Source of the DNA: Brachyspira suanatina
GTDB lineage: Bacteria; Spirochaetota; Brachyspiria; Brachyspirales; Brachyspiraceae
DNA: 64,000 nucleotides
Direction: 5' to 3'
NCBI RefSeq assembly: GCF_001049755.1
Contig: NZ_CVLB01000001.1
Span: 124,001-188,000 of the forward strand
Shown here: positions 33,313 through 42,983 of the stretch, in pieces
Position numbering within the stretch: position 1 is the stretch's first letter
Layout: each line of letters opens with the position of its first letter
Notes under the pieces: generated by a model
Told to the model about the DNA's origin: nothing
Databases searched by the model: none
The model's input: the letters and a program-made list of their open reading frames with translations, nothing else
Translations under genes and position numbers: made by a program

Positions 33313-33690
33313 TTATTTTTTTGTTTTTACACCTGGGCAGGCTCTTTTGAATTTTCCAGAGATTAAATTTCCATTTTTATCCATATATTCTTTCCAATAT
33401 GGAAAAGTAGCGCATTGATTAGGTTTTGAACTATTAATAGTACACCTGTTATTTTCATCAAGGAATGTACAAGGCTTATCATCTGTTACTTTTATATAAT
33501 AACCATAACCTTCTTCATATTCTAAATATTGATTAATAAAAACTAAAGGAGAGATTTCTAAAAATTTAGATGCTCTTTTTATATCATCATCGCTAAAGAA
33601 TACATATCCTTTTTCTTTACAGCATATACCGCATCCGGTGCATGAAAATGTTAATATGGAATTTTTATTTAATTTGTTAGATTTTTTCAT
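33313..33690 (-). CDS. YkgJ-type Cys-cluster protein
   Basis: A 125-aa protein of the YkgJ (CxxCxxCC, putative zinc/iron-chelating) family. CTGCGICC lies at the N-terminus, and further cysteines occur in DKPCTFLDENNRCTI, QCATFPYW and RACPG, the family pattern. The function is not established for the family; a metal or Fe-S site is inferred. It starts 3 bp after the stop of the 866-aa gene, so it belongs to that operon. Confidence 0.85.
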   Translation of the reverse strand: MKKSNKLNKNSILTFSCTGCGICCKEKGYVFFSDDDIKRASKFLEISPLVFINQYLEYEEGYGYYIKVTDDKPCTFLDENNRCTINSSKPNQCATFPYWKEYMDKNGNLISGKFKRACPGVKTKK

Positions 33691-33693
33691 TTT

Positions 33694-36294
33694 TTATTTT
33701 AATATAGAATCAGCCTGAGATTTTATAGAATTAGCTAGATTTTGTTTTCCCATTTTTAAATACATTTCAGACACTTTTATATAATCATTGTATAAAGATC
33801 TTTTTTCTGAATCATTCATATCTTCAATTTTTTTTTTTCCCCCATTAGGGATTTTGATATCTATATTAAATACTATACTGTCAGGATTATTTTTTATTAT
33901 ATTTTCGTTAAGTACTGCTATTGAAGGCCATCTTCTGCTGTCTCCAAGCTCTGCAGTGGCTATTGATGATAGTGTGTCAGTCCATTTTGTTTTATAAGTA
34001 TCTGTATTATATGCCAATGTGTTATTATTTGCCTGTGTATTGTTAACAGCCGCATTTGTATTTGCAGTTGGAGGATTAGGCGGAGGTGTTGGAGGAGTAG
34101 GTGGTGTTATTTCCGGCTCTTTTGGAGGAGTAGGCGGTGTTACAGTATTAGTTTGCGGTCTAGCAGTATTAGTCTGAGTATTTACTGTATTGTTAGTCTG
34201 TGGTCTAGTAGTATTAGTCTGAGTATTTACTGTATTGTTAGTCTGTGGTCTAGTAGTATTAGTCTGAGTATTTACTGTATTGTTAGTCTGCGGTCTAGCA
34301 GTATTAGTCTGAGTATTTACTGTATTGTTAGTCTGTGGTCTAGTAGTATTAGTTTGAGTATTTACTGTATTGTTAGTTTGCGGTCTAGTAATATTAGTCT
34401 GAGTATTTACTGCATTGTTAGTCTGTTGTCTAGCAGCATTAGTATTTACCGCATTGTTAGTTTTTATATTATTAGTTTGTGGTCTATTAATATTAGTGTT
34501 TATATTGTTAGTAACAGATATAACATCATTTGTTATTAGATTATTAGTATTTAATGTATTATTATTTGTTACTTCTTCATAGAAATTATCATCTATTTCA
34601 TTATTTCTTCCAGAGAAGAATTGTATGCCTAAGAATGATAATCCTAATATTATAATTATAATTCCAACTATAGGAACAATTTTATTAGATTTTTTATTCT
34701 CACTTATAGAATGATCAGGAGCCACATAAGGTTCAGCTGGTTTTTTTTCTATTTCAGGTAAAGAAGAAGTTTTTAATTCATCTTCTGTTTCTATAATTTT
34801 TATTTCTTTATCTTTTAATTCCTGAATTTTTTCATTGATAGTTTCTTTTAATTCTTCTATTTTTGTTTCTGATGCTGAAGAAGAATAATCTTTATAGTTT
34901 TCTACAGAAGTATTTTCATCTATTGTTGGAGCATCTTTTATTGCAGTATCTATTTCTTCTTGATTGAATTTAGATTTCTGTATATGTTCATCATCGTTAG
35001 GTATAACAACAGGTCTTTTAAATATATCACTTTTACTGTATGTAGCTTTTTCTTCTACTTTTAGAGTTTCCTCTTTCACTGTTTCTTCAATTTTCTCAAC
35101 TTCATCAGTATCTGCTTCTGTTTTCTCTTCTGCGATTACATCAAGTTCTTTAGTTTCTTCTACTACTGTTTCTTCTTTAGTTTCTATTTCTTCACTTTTT
35201 TCATTAGATTTATCTTCAGGTATTTCTTCTATATTTTCATCTTGAGTATAATTATTTTCTTCTATCTTTTCAGTTTCTTCAATTTTTTCTTCTTCTTTTT
35301 CTCTATTAGTAGATTCAAATGTTTCAAAAGAATAAGGAAATGAAGCATTATTATTATGAACTATTGCTGATGATGCTATAGTTTCTGTATTTGATTCTTC
35401 AGTAGTAGCAGCTGCAGTATCTTCAATATACTCATTTTTTTCTTCTGCTTTTTCAGCTTCTTCTGTTTTTATATTATGTGCAGCAAATACACTGCTTATA
35501 ACAGGTTTAGAAGTACTTATTTCCTCAGTAGTATTTCTAGTATTATCTAAATTATCATCATCATCTACATCTACTATAGCTATACGTTTTTTAACGCTTA
35601 CAGGTCTTGATACATTCTTAGATTTTGCCTTTATAGCTTCTTTAAGAAGAGTTATAGACTCTCTTTCAGTTTTAGTTTCAGTATTTTCTGTCTTAATTGA
35701 TTCAAGCTTTCTAACTGGAGTTGAAGTTTTAAGAACAATTTTTCTATCTGCAGTTTTTATTTCAGATGTAGCTTCTTTGATTATATCTTTTAAATCTCTT
35801 TTTTCATCATCATTTTTTTTCAGAATGGAAGTTAATGGCTTTGTTTCAGTTTTAGTTTCTTTTATTTCTGCTATTTTTTCTTCTGCTGTAGCAATTTCAG
35901 CAATATTTTTTTCAGGTTCTTCTTTCTTTTCAGCTTTTTCAGCAGTTTTTTTAGCTGCAGTTTTCTTTACAGGCTCTTCTTTCTTTTCAGCTTTTTCAGC
36001 AGTTTTTTTAGCTGCAGTTTTCTTTACAGGCTCTTCTTTCTTTTCAGCTTTTTCAGCAGTTTTTTTAGCTGCAGTTTTCTTTACAGGCTCTTCTTTCTTT
36101 TCAGCCTTTTCAGCAGTTTTTTTAGCTGTAGTTTTCTTTACAGGCTCTTCTTTCTTTTCAGCTTTTTCAGCAGTTTTTTTAGCTACAGTTTTCTTTACAG
36201 ACTCTTCTTTTTTGTTAGTAGTTTTTTCAGTTGCAGCTTTTTTTGTTTCTTTAGCTTCTTCTTTTTTGTTTGTTGTAGTTTTTTTTGTTGCCAT
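33694..36294 (-). CDS. Transmembrane protein with H1-like repeats, Asn/Thr repeats and LysM-like end (866 aa)
   Basis: Order: a Lys/Ala/Thr-rich N-terminus with about five 19-aa repeats of the type KKEEPVKKTAAKKTAEKAE (about residues 30-130), resembling histone H1-like tails; an acidic Glu-rich stretch to about 530; one membrane helix (about 536-559); Asn/Thr 15-aa repeats (RPQTNNTVNTQTNTT type, about 618-715); a Pro-rich stalk; and a LysM-like C-terminal domain (YKTKWTDTLSSIATAELGD then WPSIAVLNENI, from about 765). The plan predicts a cytoplasmic N-terminus and a periplasmic peptidoglycan-binding end. It lies between a winged-helix gene (4-bp gap) and the YkgJ gene. Function unknown. Confidence 0.8.
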   Translation of the reverse strand: MATKKTTTNKKEEAKETKKAATEKTTNKKEESVKKTVAKKTAEKAEKKEEPVKKTTAKKTAEKAEKKEEPVKKTAAKKTAEKAEKKEEPVKKTAAKKTAEKAEKKEEPVKKTAAKKTAEKAEKKEEPEKNIAEIATAEEKIAEIKETKTETKPLTSILKKNDDEKRDLKDIIKEATSEIKTADRKIVLKTSTPVRKLESIKTENTETKTERESITLLKEAIKAKSKNVSRPVSVKKRIAIVDVDDDDNLDNTRNTTEEISTSKPVISSVFAAHNIKTEEAEKAEEKNEYIEDTAAATTEESNTETIASSAIVHNNNASFPYSFETFESTNREKEEEKIEETEKIEENNYTQDENIEEIPEDKSNEKSEEIETKEETVVEETKELDVIAEEKTEADTDEVEKIEETVKEETLKVEEKATYSKSDIFKRPVVIPNDDEHIQKSKFNQEEIDTAIKDAPTIDENTSVENYKDYSSSASETKIEELKETINEKIQELKDKEIKIIETEDELKTSSLPEIEKKPAEPYVAPDHSISENKKSNKIVPIVGIIIIILGLSFLGIQFFSGRNNEIDDNFYEEVTNNNTLNTNNLITNDVISVTNNINTNINRPQTNNIKTNNAVNTNAARQQTNNAVNTQTNITRPQTNNTVNTQTNTTRPQTNNTVNTQTNTARPQTNNTVNTQTNTTRPQTNNTVNTQTNTTRPQTNNTVNTQTNTARPQTNTVTPPTPPKEPEITPPTPPTPPPNPPTANTNAAVNNTQANNNTLAYNTDTYKTKWTDTLSSIATAELGDSRRWPSIAVLNENIIKNNPDSIVFNIDIKIPNGGKKKIEDMNDSEKRSLYNDYIKVSEMYLKMGKQNLANSIKSQADSILK
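34150..34440. repeat. 45-bp tandem repeats inside the 866-aa gene
   Basis: About six 45-bp units coding (on the minus strand) for a 15-aa Asn/Thr/Gln repeat. Units differ mainly at a Thr/Ala codon. This is an obvious site for slippage and length change. Confidence 0.9.
35910..36205. repeat. 57-bp tandem repeats inside the 866-aa gene
   Basis: Five near-identical 57-bp units coding for the 19-aa Lys/Ala/Glu repeat. Several units are almost base-identical, which suggests recent duplication or gene-internal recombination. Confidence 0.9.
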
Positions 36295-36298
36295 ATTT

Positions 36299-37039
36299 TC
36301 ACTCTGTTATATTTTGTTTTCTGTTTATTAATATACTTTTTATAGTATTCATTGTCTTTTCATCGAATATGTTTTCAGTTATATTACCTCTTTTTAAAGA
36401 ATCTATAAGATATTTATTTAAATTTATATCTTTATTTAGATTTTTTTCTTTTGCTATATAAACATAATTACACATAGAAAGAATTATTCTAAGCTGATTT
36501 CCGTCAGAAGAATATTTATCTATTAATTTTTGAGGCTCATCTATACCTAAACAACTTAAATTATAACAAACTTTAAAGAAAAGTTTATTAGTAACTTGTT
36601 TAATTTGCGTATCTTTTTTAGTTTTTTTATTTACAGTATATAGTATAGAAAAGTCTCTAGCTTCAAAATTGCATATAGTAGCATAAAACTTTTCTTGATA
36701 AGGCATAAGATAATGATGACTTTTTGCCTTAGATTCTACTCTAGTAATAAAACCTTTCTCTTCTAAAGTATCCAATGATTTTACTATAGTAGCATTTCCG
36801 CCTATACCGGCTTCATTTAATATTTGAGAATGAGTTGTTTTAGCTATTCCAAGCTCATAATCATAATTAGCTACTAAAGTTCTGTATACTTCTTTAGCAG
36901 ATAAAGGTAATTTCTTCCAAGTATTATTTTCTGTTATAGATTTTGGAATGAAAGAACACATTGATGCTATTGACAAAAATGTATCTTTATCTATTGTTTT
37001 TAATTGTGCTTTATTTATTATATCTATAATGTTTTCCAA
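36299..37039 (-). CDS. Winged-helix DNA-binding protein (246 aa)
   Basis: An N-terminal half (about residues 45-125) shows a winged-helix pattern: KEVYRTLVANYDYELGIAKTTHSQI then GGNATIVKSLDTLEEKGFITRVESKA, with helix-turn-helix and wing as in MarR-type or replication-initiator-type domains. The C-terminal half is helical and Lys-rich. No specific family is certain. It is the first gene of the operon with the 866-aa envelope protein and YkgJ protein, and so may regulate them or share a chromosome-related role. Confidence 0.7.
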   Translation of the reverse strand: MENIIDIINKAQLKTIDKDTFLSIASMCSFIPKSITENNTWKKLPLSAKEVYRTLVANYDYELGIAKTTHSQILNEAGIGGNATIVKSLDTLEEKGFITRVESKAKSHHYLMPYQEKFYATICNFEARDFSILYTVNKKTKKDTQIKQVTNKLFFKVCYNLSCLGIDEPQKLIDKYSSDGNQLRIILSMCNYVYIAKEKNLNKDINLNKYLIDSLKRGNITENIFDEKTMNTIKSILINRKQNITE

Positions 37040-37557
37040 AATTCTACTCCAGTATGTATATAATATATCTAAATTAATATAAAATCAAGTTTTAATAAAA
37101 TATTTTATAAGTGTATTTTTTAATACTTTTATTTTATAAGTTAGACTTTTTTTATCGGATTTGTTTTTAATAATTTTATTTTGAATTTTTTATAAGAAAT
37201 TTTCAAAATATATTTTTAGAAACTCCGCTGAATTTCATTAATTTTAATTTTTTATGAGTATTTTTTGGAAATTTAGTCTTAAAATTTCCTGAGATTTCTT
37301 GAATTTTAATTTTTTTACGAACTTTTTTTGAAATTTATTCTAAAAAATCCCAAAATTTTGAATTTTTCAGAATAAATTTTCCAAAAATTACCCAAAAATT
37401 CCCTAAATTTCAAGATTTTTAGGCTATTTTGGGGCTCATTTTTGGCAAAAATGGCAAAATATATTTTTAGCTAGCCTCAATATGTATTATATGTTTTATA
37501 AATACTGTATTTTAATAAAAAAGCCTGAAGTTTTATAAAAAACGCCCTTTTTAGCTA
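37040..37557. other. AT-rich spacer with repeats and a long hairpin upstream of the 16S promoter
   Basis: No gene seen. It contains two degenerate direct repeats of about 60 bp (from 37232 and 37294). A long hairpin (arms about 37324-37348 and 37361-37387, a largely paired stem of about 25 bp) follows. Phased A and T tracts suggest curved DNA. Confidence 0.6.
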
Positions 37558-37825: not shown

Positions 37826-39341
<1,516 letters not shown>

Positions 39342-40280: not shown

Positions 40281-42983
40281 TTAATCATTAGTAGTTTCTT
40301 CTTTGAATCCTAGAGATAAATCTATTTCCTTACTGTAATTGCTGTCATAATACCAATTGTATAGTTTCCAATTATTAGTATCAAATATATTATTATTTAC
40401 ATGATAATATGTATTAAAATCATAAGTGTTTGATGATTGATTTTCAGGCTTCCAACTTCTTATTCTTATTATATTAGCACCATTAGTTTTATAATCATTA
40501 GTTATTATTTTATTATTGAATATGTTTTTTATATCTTTTATATGATTAACTGCTAAATATGGCATATCTGCTACAGTCATAAAATTGGTATCAATATTTA
40601 ATCTGCCTTTTGAATTAAAATCTTTGTACATTAATAAAGAATTATATAAAGCTATGAATTTGGTATTAGGCTTTTCAAAATATTTAGCGTTTATTCTATA
40701 TCCATGATCTGAAATAATTATTATTTTTGTATTATCATAAACATTATTATCTTTCAAGAAATTTATAATTTTAACTATATTTTTCATTGAAGCAGCATTA
40801 GCATAAAAATGTCTTACACTGTTTGTATCTTTATATATTTTTAAATCATTTGTATCTATATAGTTCAAAGATACTGAAGGCAATAAATCAGGAAGAAAAT
40901 AATGCGGTTCATGTGTGGTATTGTTATGCATTATATTATAATTATTACCATTTTCATCTATATTTATTAAATCTTTAATAGAATCTAGTAAGGCATAATT
41001 TTCTATACTTGTATTCATAATATTATTTTCGTTTATAAGCCATTTTCCGCCACTGTATAATGTTTTTCTTAGCCATAAAGGTATTATCCTAAAAAATGAA
41101 AATCTTATCAATTTATCATTATCTAAATTAGATGTTATTATATTATTTTCATTTGTATATTTGTTAATGCTGTAATCATATATATAATCTTTATTATATG
41201 CTTTGATATTACTGTAATTATTAAATATGCTTAGATCACCTTCAAAAGACATATTAGCATAAACAGGATCAAGTATATAAGATTTATAGCCGTATTTTTC
41301 TAAAGATAGAGGCAATGTTAATAATGCATTGTTATGAATATTTGTAATATTGTTTTTCTTATTTGTGCTTGTTTCGTATGGTAGATAATCATAACCTCCA
41401 TAAATAGATGCTATTGTTATGGTATTATAATTGTATGAAACAGTATTAGGATAGAATGTAAAGCCGTCAAACATATCTTTATATTCTTCAAATCTATTAA
41501 AGGCATCAAACCAATATGAAGGTATGGCTCTATCCAATATTATAACGAATATATTTTCTCCATTTCTCGATATATTAAATATTTTTTCTCCGTTTTTTAA
41601 TTTATATGATGTTTTTGTATATCTATCATCATAGCTTAATATCTTATATGTATAAAATATTGATGAGGCAATCAATACGAATATTATTATATAATCAATA
41701 TTTACTAATACATAGGATTTGGATTTTTTTATAATGAAATAAATAAAAACGAAAGAAATTAATATCATTAAAGTATTGATTATTATATCTTTATTAACTA
41801 TTTTAATAGAACTGTCAAACATAAAATCAGAGTTCATATTAGGATAATTACCAGCAAAAATGAATGTGTCTATTATGAATATTACAGACAAAAATATAAA
41901 TGCTAATGTTATATAATTTTTTGTTTTATCTGAAAATATATTATATATAAACAAAGGATAAAATAAAAATATTCCTATACTCATTGAAAGATTATTTATT
42001 ATTAGGCTTAAATGATTATTGAATTCTGATACTGAATTATTTATCAATGATGTAGGTATAAAGAGCCCTGAAAGTACGGTTATAATCAAACATGATAATA
42101 TAAGTAGTTTATATCTGTATTTAATGAAATTATTATTTTTAATCAATGATTTTTCTATATAATCAAAGTTTAATGTCAATATTATTATTATAAAAAGAGT
42201 TAAAATATTTTTTATATCTATTTTATTTATAAAAGATATCACAATCAATACTATAAAAGCCAATATAACAAACACATTGCATATTTTTAATATTTTATCT
42301 TTATTTAATGCCTTATATAATTTATATTCCAAAACAATATTTTTAATTAAAGAAAATAGGCAGTTGATATTCCAATAAAATAATAATCCTGAAGGCGAAT
42401 TATATAATATGATTAAAAATATTAATGAACTTATATATAGAGGCATACTTTCTTTTATAGTCAATTTTTTGCTGTAAACCATTCCTGCAAGTATACTGAA
42501 TATAGTCATAGTAAATGGGAGTAAATTAATACCGTTTATTAAATTATCAGGCTTTGAAAAATCTTTTATGAAAAATAAATTTCCCTGAGATAAATCGGAT
42601 AAACTGTATATGAAATTATATGCTGCAATAAAGAAAGGTATTTGTATTAAAAGCCCTAAAACTCCTCTGAAGGCATAAATTATTTTGTATCCGTTAATTC
42701 TATGACAGGTTCTTATTAGTAAATATCTTTGATCACCTTTATAAACGGCTTTTATATTATCTATTATAGGCTTCATTTTGTTTTGAATGTTTCTTTCTTT
42801 TTCCTGCCATTTTTCTGCTATATTATAAAGAGGGAGAGATAAAAAATTTACTGATAAACTTAATAAGAATATACTTGTACTATAAGATAAATTAAATATA
42901 TTCTTAAATAGAAAAAATAAAGTTTCTATAATAAATTCTATTGGAAATATAAAAATATCAAAAAATATATCTGCTAATATCAT
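40281..42983 (-). CDS. YidC/Oxa1-like membrane domain fused to a sulfatase-like domain (900 aa)
   Basis: Residues about 1-230 look like a YidC/Oxa1 insertase core: KWQEKERNIQNKMKPIIDNI coiled region, RVLG-type helices and NSPSGLLFYWNINCLFSLIKN. A middle part (about 235-450) holds further membrane helices. Residues about 475-830 form an extracytoplasmic alkaline-phosphatase-superfamily (sulfatase/phosphoglycerol transferase-like) domain: FVIILDRAIPSYW (Asp484), TTHEPHYF, IIIISDHGYRI (Asp759-His760-Gly761). The nucleophile Ser/Thr is not clear. Canonical YidC is about half this size, so this is not the housekeeping insertase. Possible role: modifying an envelope polymer near a membrane insertion or flipping channel. 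Confidence 0.8.
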   Translation of the reverse strand: MILADIFFDIFIFPIEFIIETLFFLFKNIFNLSYSTSIFLLSLSVNFLSLPLYNIAEKWQEKERNIQNKMKPIIDNIKAVYKGDQRYLLIRTCHRINGYKIIYAFRGVLGLLIQIPFFIAAYNFIYSLSDLSQGNLFFIKDFSKPDNLINGINLLPFTMTIFSILAGMVYSKKLTIKESMPLYISSLIFLIILYNSPSGLLFYWNINCLFSLIKNIVLEYKLYKALNKDKILKICNVFVILAFIVLIVISFINKIDIKNILTLFIIIILTLNFDYIEKSLIKNNNFIKYRYKLLILSCLIITVLSGLFIPTSLINNSVSEFNNHLSLIINNLSMSIGIFLFYPLFIYNIFSDKTKNYITLAFIFLSVIFIIDTFIFAGNYPNMNSDFMFDSSIKIVNKDIIINTLMILISFVFIYFIIKKSKSYVLVNIDYIIIFVLIASSIFYTYKILSYDDRYTKTSYKLKNGEKIFNISRNGENIFVIILDRAIPSYWFDAFNRFEEYKDMFDGFTFYPNTVSYNYNTITIASIYGGYDYLPYETSTNKKNNITNIHNNALLTLPLSLEKYGYKSYILDPVYANMSFEGDLSIFNNYSNIKAYNKDYIYDYSINKYTNENNIITSNLDNDKLIRFSFFRIIPLWLRKTLYSGGKWLINENNIMNTSIENYALLDSIKDLINIDENGNNYNIMHNNTTHEPHYFLPDLLPSVSLNYIDTNDLKIYKDTNSVRHFYANAASMKNIVKIINFLKDNNVYDNTKIIIISDHGYRINAKYFEKPNTKFIALYNSLLMYKDFNSKGRLNIDTNFMTVADMPYLAVNHIKDIKNIFNNKIITNDYKTNGANIIRIRSWKPENQSSNTYDFNTYYHVNNNIFDTNNWKLYNWYYDSNYSKEIDLSLGFKEETTND

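Follow-up and report, generated by a model that had tools for sequence, protein, structure and literature searches.

Gene structure and genomic context

On the minus strand of the 64,000-nucleotide stretch of Brachyspira suanatina DNA analysed here (the window), an open reading frame with an ATG start at 33694..36294 encodes a protein of 866 aa, exactly within the limits given in the original prediction. The product is a predicted membrane protein with a cytoplasmic N terminus and an extracytoplasmic LysM domain. Pfam and NCBIfam scans of the whole protein detected zero families at E<=1, a Pfam match to HU being absent as well, and the open-access literature yielded no paper on this protein or on membrane proteins of the H1-tail/LysM or HU/LysM kind.

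The gene occupies the middle of a three-gene operon, in the order winged-helix protein, 866-aa protein, CxxCxxCC protein, which is kept throughout Brachyspiraceae. The upstream winged-helix gene (36299..37039, minus strand; 246 aa, TTG start) lies 4 bases from the 866-aa gene, and the CxxCxxCC gene (33313..33690, minus strand; 125 aa; PF03692, E 1.8e-11) starts 3 bases past it. Among 26 fetched Brachyspiraceae loci, the CxxCxxCC gene is found downstream in all 26 and the winged-helix gene upstream in 25, with a truncated copy in L051; L041 starts within the gene at a contig end. The operon partners are thus kept in the synteny comparison that had been proposed across Brachyspira.

The presence of a winged-helix DNA-binding protein in the operon had also been taken to add weight to a nucleic-acid role. 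Both the gene and the fold are present; however, the fold matches many winged-helix kinds about equally, so the partner is a weak argument alone. In a comparison with initiators of the RepA/DnaD type, RepA-type N-terminal domains ranked top (Z 7.9 and 7.5), with Fur, CRP-type and other winged-helix domains within 1 Z, and Foldseek alone found no match to the model at E<=0.001. Assignment of the partner to a family was abandoned because the Pfam matches lay under the cut-offs and the fold ranks were tied.

Conservation and membrane topology

A query made of the C-terminal 108 residues matched 31 of 61 genomes, with matches in 24 of the 26 genomes of the genus (none in G002 and G013) and in each of the 3 remaining genomes of the family. 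The set of intact sequences drawn from the window and 26 loci numbers 22 (the window protein and 21 loci); L031, L035, L051 and L053 were omitted for broken frames and L041 for its contig end. The broken reading frames, found in 4 of 26 Brachyspiraceae loci with two of the breaks in or beside the basic repeats, may represent either assembly error or true loss.

The sole hydrophobic segment of the protein comprises residues 538-560 (34615..34683, minus strand), where the best 19-mer scores 2.89 on the Kyte-Doolittle scale against 0.74 for the next best elsewhere, in agreement with the single helix claimed at the outset. Residues 1-537 are accordingly assigned to the cytoplasmic part. One helix, an N-inside topology and a basic tip were obtained for 22/22 intact homologues. 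The N side of the helix carries 3-6 positive residues and the C side 1-2, and the N side is the more positive in every one of the 22, as the proposed orientation demands.

This orientation bears on the idea that the protein is a surface-exposed repeat antigen or adhesin with its low-complexity repeats outside the cell. The gene does contain two repeat arrays whose unit sequences vary between species, as in many surface proteins, but an N-terminal hydrophobic signal is absent, the only hydrophobic segment starting at residue 538. Since the N side is more positive and no such signal exists, the basic repeats are predicted to lie inside, leaving the stalk repeats as the only ones beyond the inner membrane. 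The open-access literature yielded no description of a surface-antigen role for these repeats, and such a role appears very improbable.

The basic tip

The N-terminal 134 residues (35893..36294, minus strand) form a Lys-rich basic tip of H1-like composition with five 19-aa repeats. The repeats are encoded by a 57-bp tandem array (35909..36210, minus strand; 5.3 copies, 96% match); the Lys/Ala/Glu repeats originally described are therefore real in the DNA, and they are predicted to be inside. Each 19-aa K/A/E/T unit has a net charge of about +3 together with many glutamates, and residues 1-128 contain 45 K, 0 R and 27 E, giving a net charge of +18. The best 128-aa stretch of the tip contains 46 K, compared with no more than 20 in any of the 44 other window ORFs that reach 150 aa, chance ORFs included. 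A comparison of the tip with its own genome gave no noteworthy second match: the one further row (E 0.06) overlaps this same gene and is broken by stops.

Lys/Ala-rich repeats also make up the H1-like tails of mycobacterial HupB and chlamydial Hc1/HC2. The tip, free of arginine over its first 128 residues, differs from these tails in its many glutamates, its attachment to a membrane protein and its lack of a family match above chance. Linker-histone and HC2 models, on which low-complexity tails score poorly, found no match at E<=1 in the window protein, and the best HC2 match among the homologues (E 0.43, in L046 only) is not above chance. Judged from its sequence, the 866-aa protein is neither a linker histone by any family model nor an HU protein.

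In the 22 intact homologues the tip is always Lys-rich and net basic, the first 100 residues carrying a net charge of +10 to +21; in B. suanatina it is also Glu-rich. Mean identity to the ten most distant members is 38% over the tip body (residues 16-134), 59% over each of two cytoplasmic blocks (residues 189-236 and 496-532) and 53% over the C-terminal domain. The tip thus retains its charge although its sequence changes, and constraint on the motif blocks is tighter.

The acidic remainder of the cytoplasmic part

Residues 1-553 taken together have a net charge of -25; within the cytoplasmic part, the tip alone is basic. Three conserved motif blocks and an acidic linker follow. Block 1 (residues 189-236; 35587..35730, minus strand) contains RESITLLKEAIKAKSKNVS and reaches a mean column conservation of 0.87 over residues 211-225. 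The linker (residues 240-416; 35047..35577, minus strand) is poorly conserved, with 24% identity to ten distant members over residues 240-415, and residues 240-430 have a net charge of -39. Block 2 (residues 417-468; 34891..35046, minus strand) has the form TYSKSDIFKRPV ... SKFNQEEIDTAI, and block 3 (residues 496-532; 34699..34809, minus strand), just N-terminal to the membrane, the form KEIKIIETEDELKTS..PEIEKKPAEPY. The acidic character of the cytoplasmic part overall, the three blocks and the family-wide operon are additions to the original prediction. Because the repeats are Glu-rich and motifs and an acidic stretch fill the remaining cytoplasmic part, this part may bind protein partners with about the same likelihood as DNA.

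These properties recall the pole or septum hubs Vibrio HubP and Pseudomonas FimV. According to PMC8789113, HubP combines a LysM in the periplasm with a single helix and an extensive cytosolic region that is acidic and rich in repeats; polar targeting requires the LysM, which also suffices for it, and the acidic region is where partners bind. The window protein likewise has LysM outside and a single helix, and its cytoplasmic part is large, acidic and of low complexity. Its negative net charge, acidic middle and conserved blocks would suit a hub of reversed order, in which LysM sits on the wall, a disordered cytoplasmic region recruits proteins by means of short motifs, and the tip sets charge or binds acidic partners rather than DNA. 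However, LysM lies N-terminal to the helix in HubP/FimV, with a FimV/TPR domain C-terminal in the cytosol; in the window protein the order is reversed, no FimV-type domain was found and Pfam families number 0. The basic tip, moreover, is present in 22/22 homologues, even in short ones that lack an acidic middle (L045, L054 and L056, -1 to +2), and a hub leaves the HU-bearing relatives described below unexplained. A hub is the main rival to the tether proposed below and is on balance rather unlikely; the two are not exclusive.

Stalk and C-terminal LysM domain

Outside the membrane, a stalk rich in Thr, Asn and Gln (residues 575-765; 34000..34572, minus strand) includes a 45-bp array of 6.6 copies at 34148-34443. 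The stalk had been described as Pro-rich; it is mainly Thr/Asn-rich, and what survives of the description is a short Pro-rich hinge at residues about 719-742 (about 34069-34140). The LysM domain (residues 766-818; 33841..33999, minus strand) comes next, followed by a two-helix hairpin (residues 828-866; 33697..33813, minus strand) that is common to the HU-type relatives. The C-terminal domain measures about 100 residues in all.

Single-protein searches were silent on the LysM-like end that had been predicted. Pfam found no family at E<=10 in the C-terminal part alone, PF01476 (LysM) matched 0 of 16 family members individually at E<=10, and Foldseek alone gave nothing at E<=0.001 for the C-terminal model (best 0.053). 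A profile of the 16 members, however, matched LysM chains in the PDB at E=2.1e-7 (a phage LysM protein) and 5.5e-7 (Kbp). An AlphaFold2 model of the domain, built from 14 rows, had a pLDDT of 88.8 and showed beta-alpha-alpha-beta followed by two helices, and VIA-align placed it at Z 9.9 and 9.5 to Kbp LysM chains and at Z 7.1 to a Thermus thermophilus LysM. On the profile search, the model and VIA-align together, the modelled C-terminal domain is established as LysM by fold, and the 866-aa protein as a LysM protein; it is a predicted peptidoglycan binder.

The FtsN and DamX proteins consist of a cytoplasmic part, a helix, a flexible stalk and a wall-binding end. The window protein has the identical order of parts and topology, with a long low-complexity stalk, and could in principle be a division or wall-synthesis factor of this layout in which LysM replaces SPOR. 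SPOR, however, is absent, with no Pfam match; none of the scanned neighbour genes matches a division family in Pfam; and a basic tip would be unexpected. We consider such a factor improbable.

HU-bearing relatives in spirochaetes

In G030, a genome of the same order from outside the family, locus L060 encodes a protein in which HU (PF00216, E 1.4e-7) is followed by a helix and a LysM domain (E 2.7e-8). The corresponding protein of G029 is without HU, and in L092 and L095 the module is present and HU absent. Across the phylum, 170 of 296 genomes gave a match to the C-terminal profile, and many of these matches covered the LysM part alone. Two of the 11 phylum loci opened have the arrangement HU-helix-LysM, namely L123 (PF00216, E 1.9e-20) and L128 (7.2e-20); the other 9 have no HU, and most of them look secreted or lipoprotein-like from their sequences. 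L135 is a third HU-type protein (PF00216, E 6.5e-24). Alignment of the window-family C-terminal domain with L123/L128 by hhalign gave 96.9% at E 1.6e-10 over 88 columns, hairpin included, compared with 0.1% for an unrelated control pair. When the two-row alignment A5 was run against the 296 phylum genomes, 3 gave matches at E<=1e-20, including the two from which its own rows were taken; this exact type is therefore rare. L135 was obtained from the same search.

These HU-TM-LysM proteins (L123, L128 and L135, and L060 of G030) resemble the window protein in having a cytoplasmic N terminus of nucleic-acid-binding type, one helix, and LysM with C-terminal helices. They differ from it in having HU in place of the Lys-rich tip, in lacking the Thr/Asn repeat stalk and in belonging to other operons. 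Because it has no HU domain, the window protein is not a member of the HU-TM-LysM type, although it may work like one. We regard it as a putative membrane-spanning link from wall to cytoplasm with a Lys-rich tail where its relatives carry HU.

In G072, from another spirochaete family, the region L123:1853-3734 has a gene for a soluble acidic-tailed HU protein immediately preceding the HU-TM-LysM gene, adjoined by genes for adenylosuccinate lyase, triosephosphate isomerase and SecG.

A second candidate, with an HU-like N terminus, in Brachyspira

The genome of the window (G000) encodes a further protein of 543 aa (L091:5105-6736; C1, about 767 kb) that combines HU-like stretches with a helix and a LysM-like end. 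Proteins of this kind are found in most Brachyspira genomes, with relatives across Brachyspiraceae. Twenty-four were aligned, 23 from the 28 loci L063-L090 plus L093; L064 (truncated, with L093 used in its place), L065 (no HU), L068 (no frame located) and L087 and L089 (starting inside the protein) were omitted. At E<=0.01, 22 of the 24 match PF00216 and 15 match PF18175. The B. suanatina copy scores 19.2 bits, below the Pfam cut-off of 22.4 bits, and when PF18175 was the sole query, no more than 7 of the class's 31 genomes gave a match at E<=0.001, with zero above the cut-off.

The 543-aa protein shares with the 866-aa protein its genome, one helix, a LysM-like end and an acidic linker; it differs in its HU/CCDC81-like N terminus, and the window-family module matches the Brachyspira HU-like proteins only weakly (hhalign 49%, E 1.7e-4). 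Judging by these features, Brachyspira probably possesses two membrane proteins with outer ends of wall-binding type and cytoplasmic ends of nucleic-acid type that differ in origin.

A pattern, Y[ST]Kx[DE][ILMV][FLMV], occurs within 34891-35046 and also in the linkers of the HU-like proteins, in at most 3 copies per protein. All but one of the 22 homologues contain it, as do 16 of the 24 HU-like proteins, and it occurs in 0 of the 44 other window ORFs. The pattern was dropped as evidence because it was picked after both families had been viewed and because a looser DNA version showed no enrichment (31 in the genome, 35 in the reversed control).

A possible tether between nucleoid and peptidoglycan

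The reading preferred here is that the 866-aa protein forms a flexible link in the inner membrane of Brachyspiraceae, connecting peptidoglycan with the nucleoid and with cytoplasmic partners; we give it a probability of roughly 0.5, the binding of DNA and of peptidoglycan being deduced from the architecture. LysM would fix the outer end to peptidoglycan, and the long stalk would cross the periplasm. The cytoplasmic part would extend from the membrane with its basic tip farthest out. Other lysine-rich tails bind nucleic acid weakly and without sequence preference, and the tip may contact DNA or RNA in the same manner. The acidic linker and the motifs would hold the tip at a distance from the membrane and provide docking sites for partners. 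A large number of such weak contacts might then keep the nucleoid near the wall with no single locus fixed.

The strongest support for nucleic-acid tethering, which is indirect, comes from the relatives with HU domains in the same cytoplasmic position, together with the HU-like protein with a LysM-like end that most Brachyspira genomes encode. An architecture kept in 22/22 homologues, a tip charge kept despite drift, the LysM module and the winged-helix upstream gene are also in favour of the tether.

Several points count against it. There are 27 Glu among 128 tip residues and the cytoplasmic part is net negative overall; true H1 tails are less acidic than this tip. Conservation is much higher in two motif blocks than in the body of the tip (59% vs 38%), as would be expected if partner docking outweighs DNA. 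The LysM-plus-hairpin module also appears on proteins that have no DNA-binding part (HU in 2 of 11 loci; G029 without HU). Finally, the Brachyspira HU-like proteins match the module weakly, the B. suanatina copy of these is below the cut-off, and 4 of 26 loci are frame-broken.

A joining of a DNA-binding fold across the membrane to a peptidoglycan-binding domain has a parallel, as an idea, in Bacteroidetes, where Burroughs and colleagues reportedly described in 2017 HU-CCDC81 proteins with SPOR domains; that system has HU and SPOR, and the window protein a Lys-rich tip and LysM. More speculatively, and with the odds somewhat against it, spirochaetes may possess a class of nucleoid-to-wall tethers in which one peptidoglycan-binding LysM-hairpin module is combined across the membrane with unrelated nucleic-acid-binding ends, HU in several lineages and an H1-like tail in Brachyspiraceae. 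Brachyspira would have both, and in its long helical cell the chromosome would be anchored to the wall without an intermediary. To our knowledge, a direct bridge between peptidoglycan and nucleoid has seldom been described in bacteria. If both Brachyspira proteins tether, two defined genes would make chromosome placement in a spirochaete open to testing, and the HU-bearing relatives illustrate an alternative DNA-binding end. The LysM-plus-hairpin profile also gives a means of detecting such proteins, which escaped single-protein Pfam scans here.

Other features of the window

A 62-bp tandem repeat (37178-37346) lies between a 16S rRNA gene (37826-39340) and the divergent three-gene operon. The 16S rRNA gene stands alone: nothing else in the 64-kb window reached an Rfam gathering score, and no tRNA was detected there. 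At 40281-42983, an unusual 900-aa fusion combines a YidC/Oxa1-type part (PF02096, E 6.8e-21) with a sulfatase-like part (E 3e-5, just below the cut-off).
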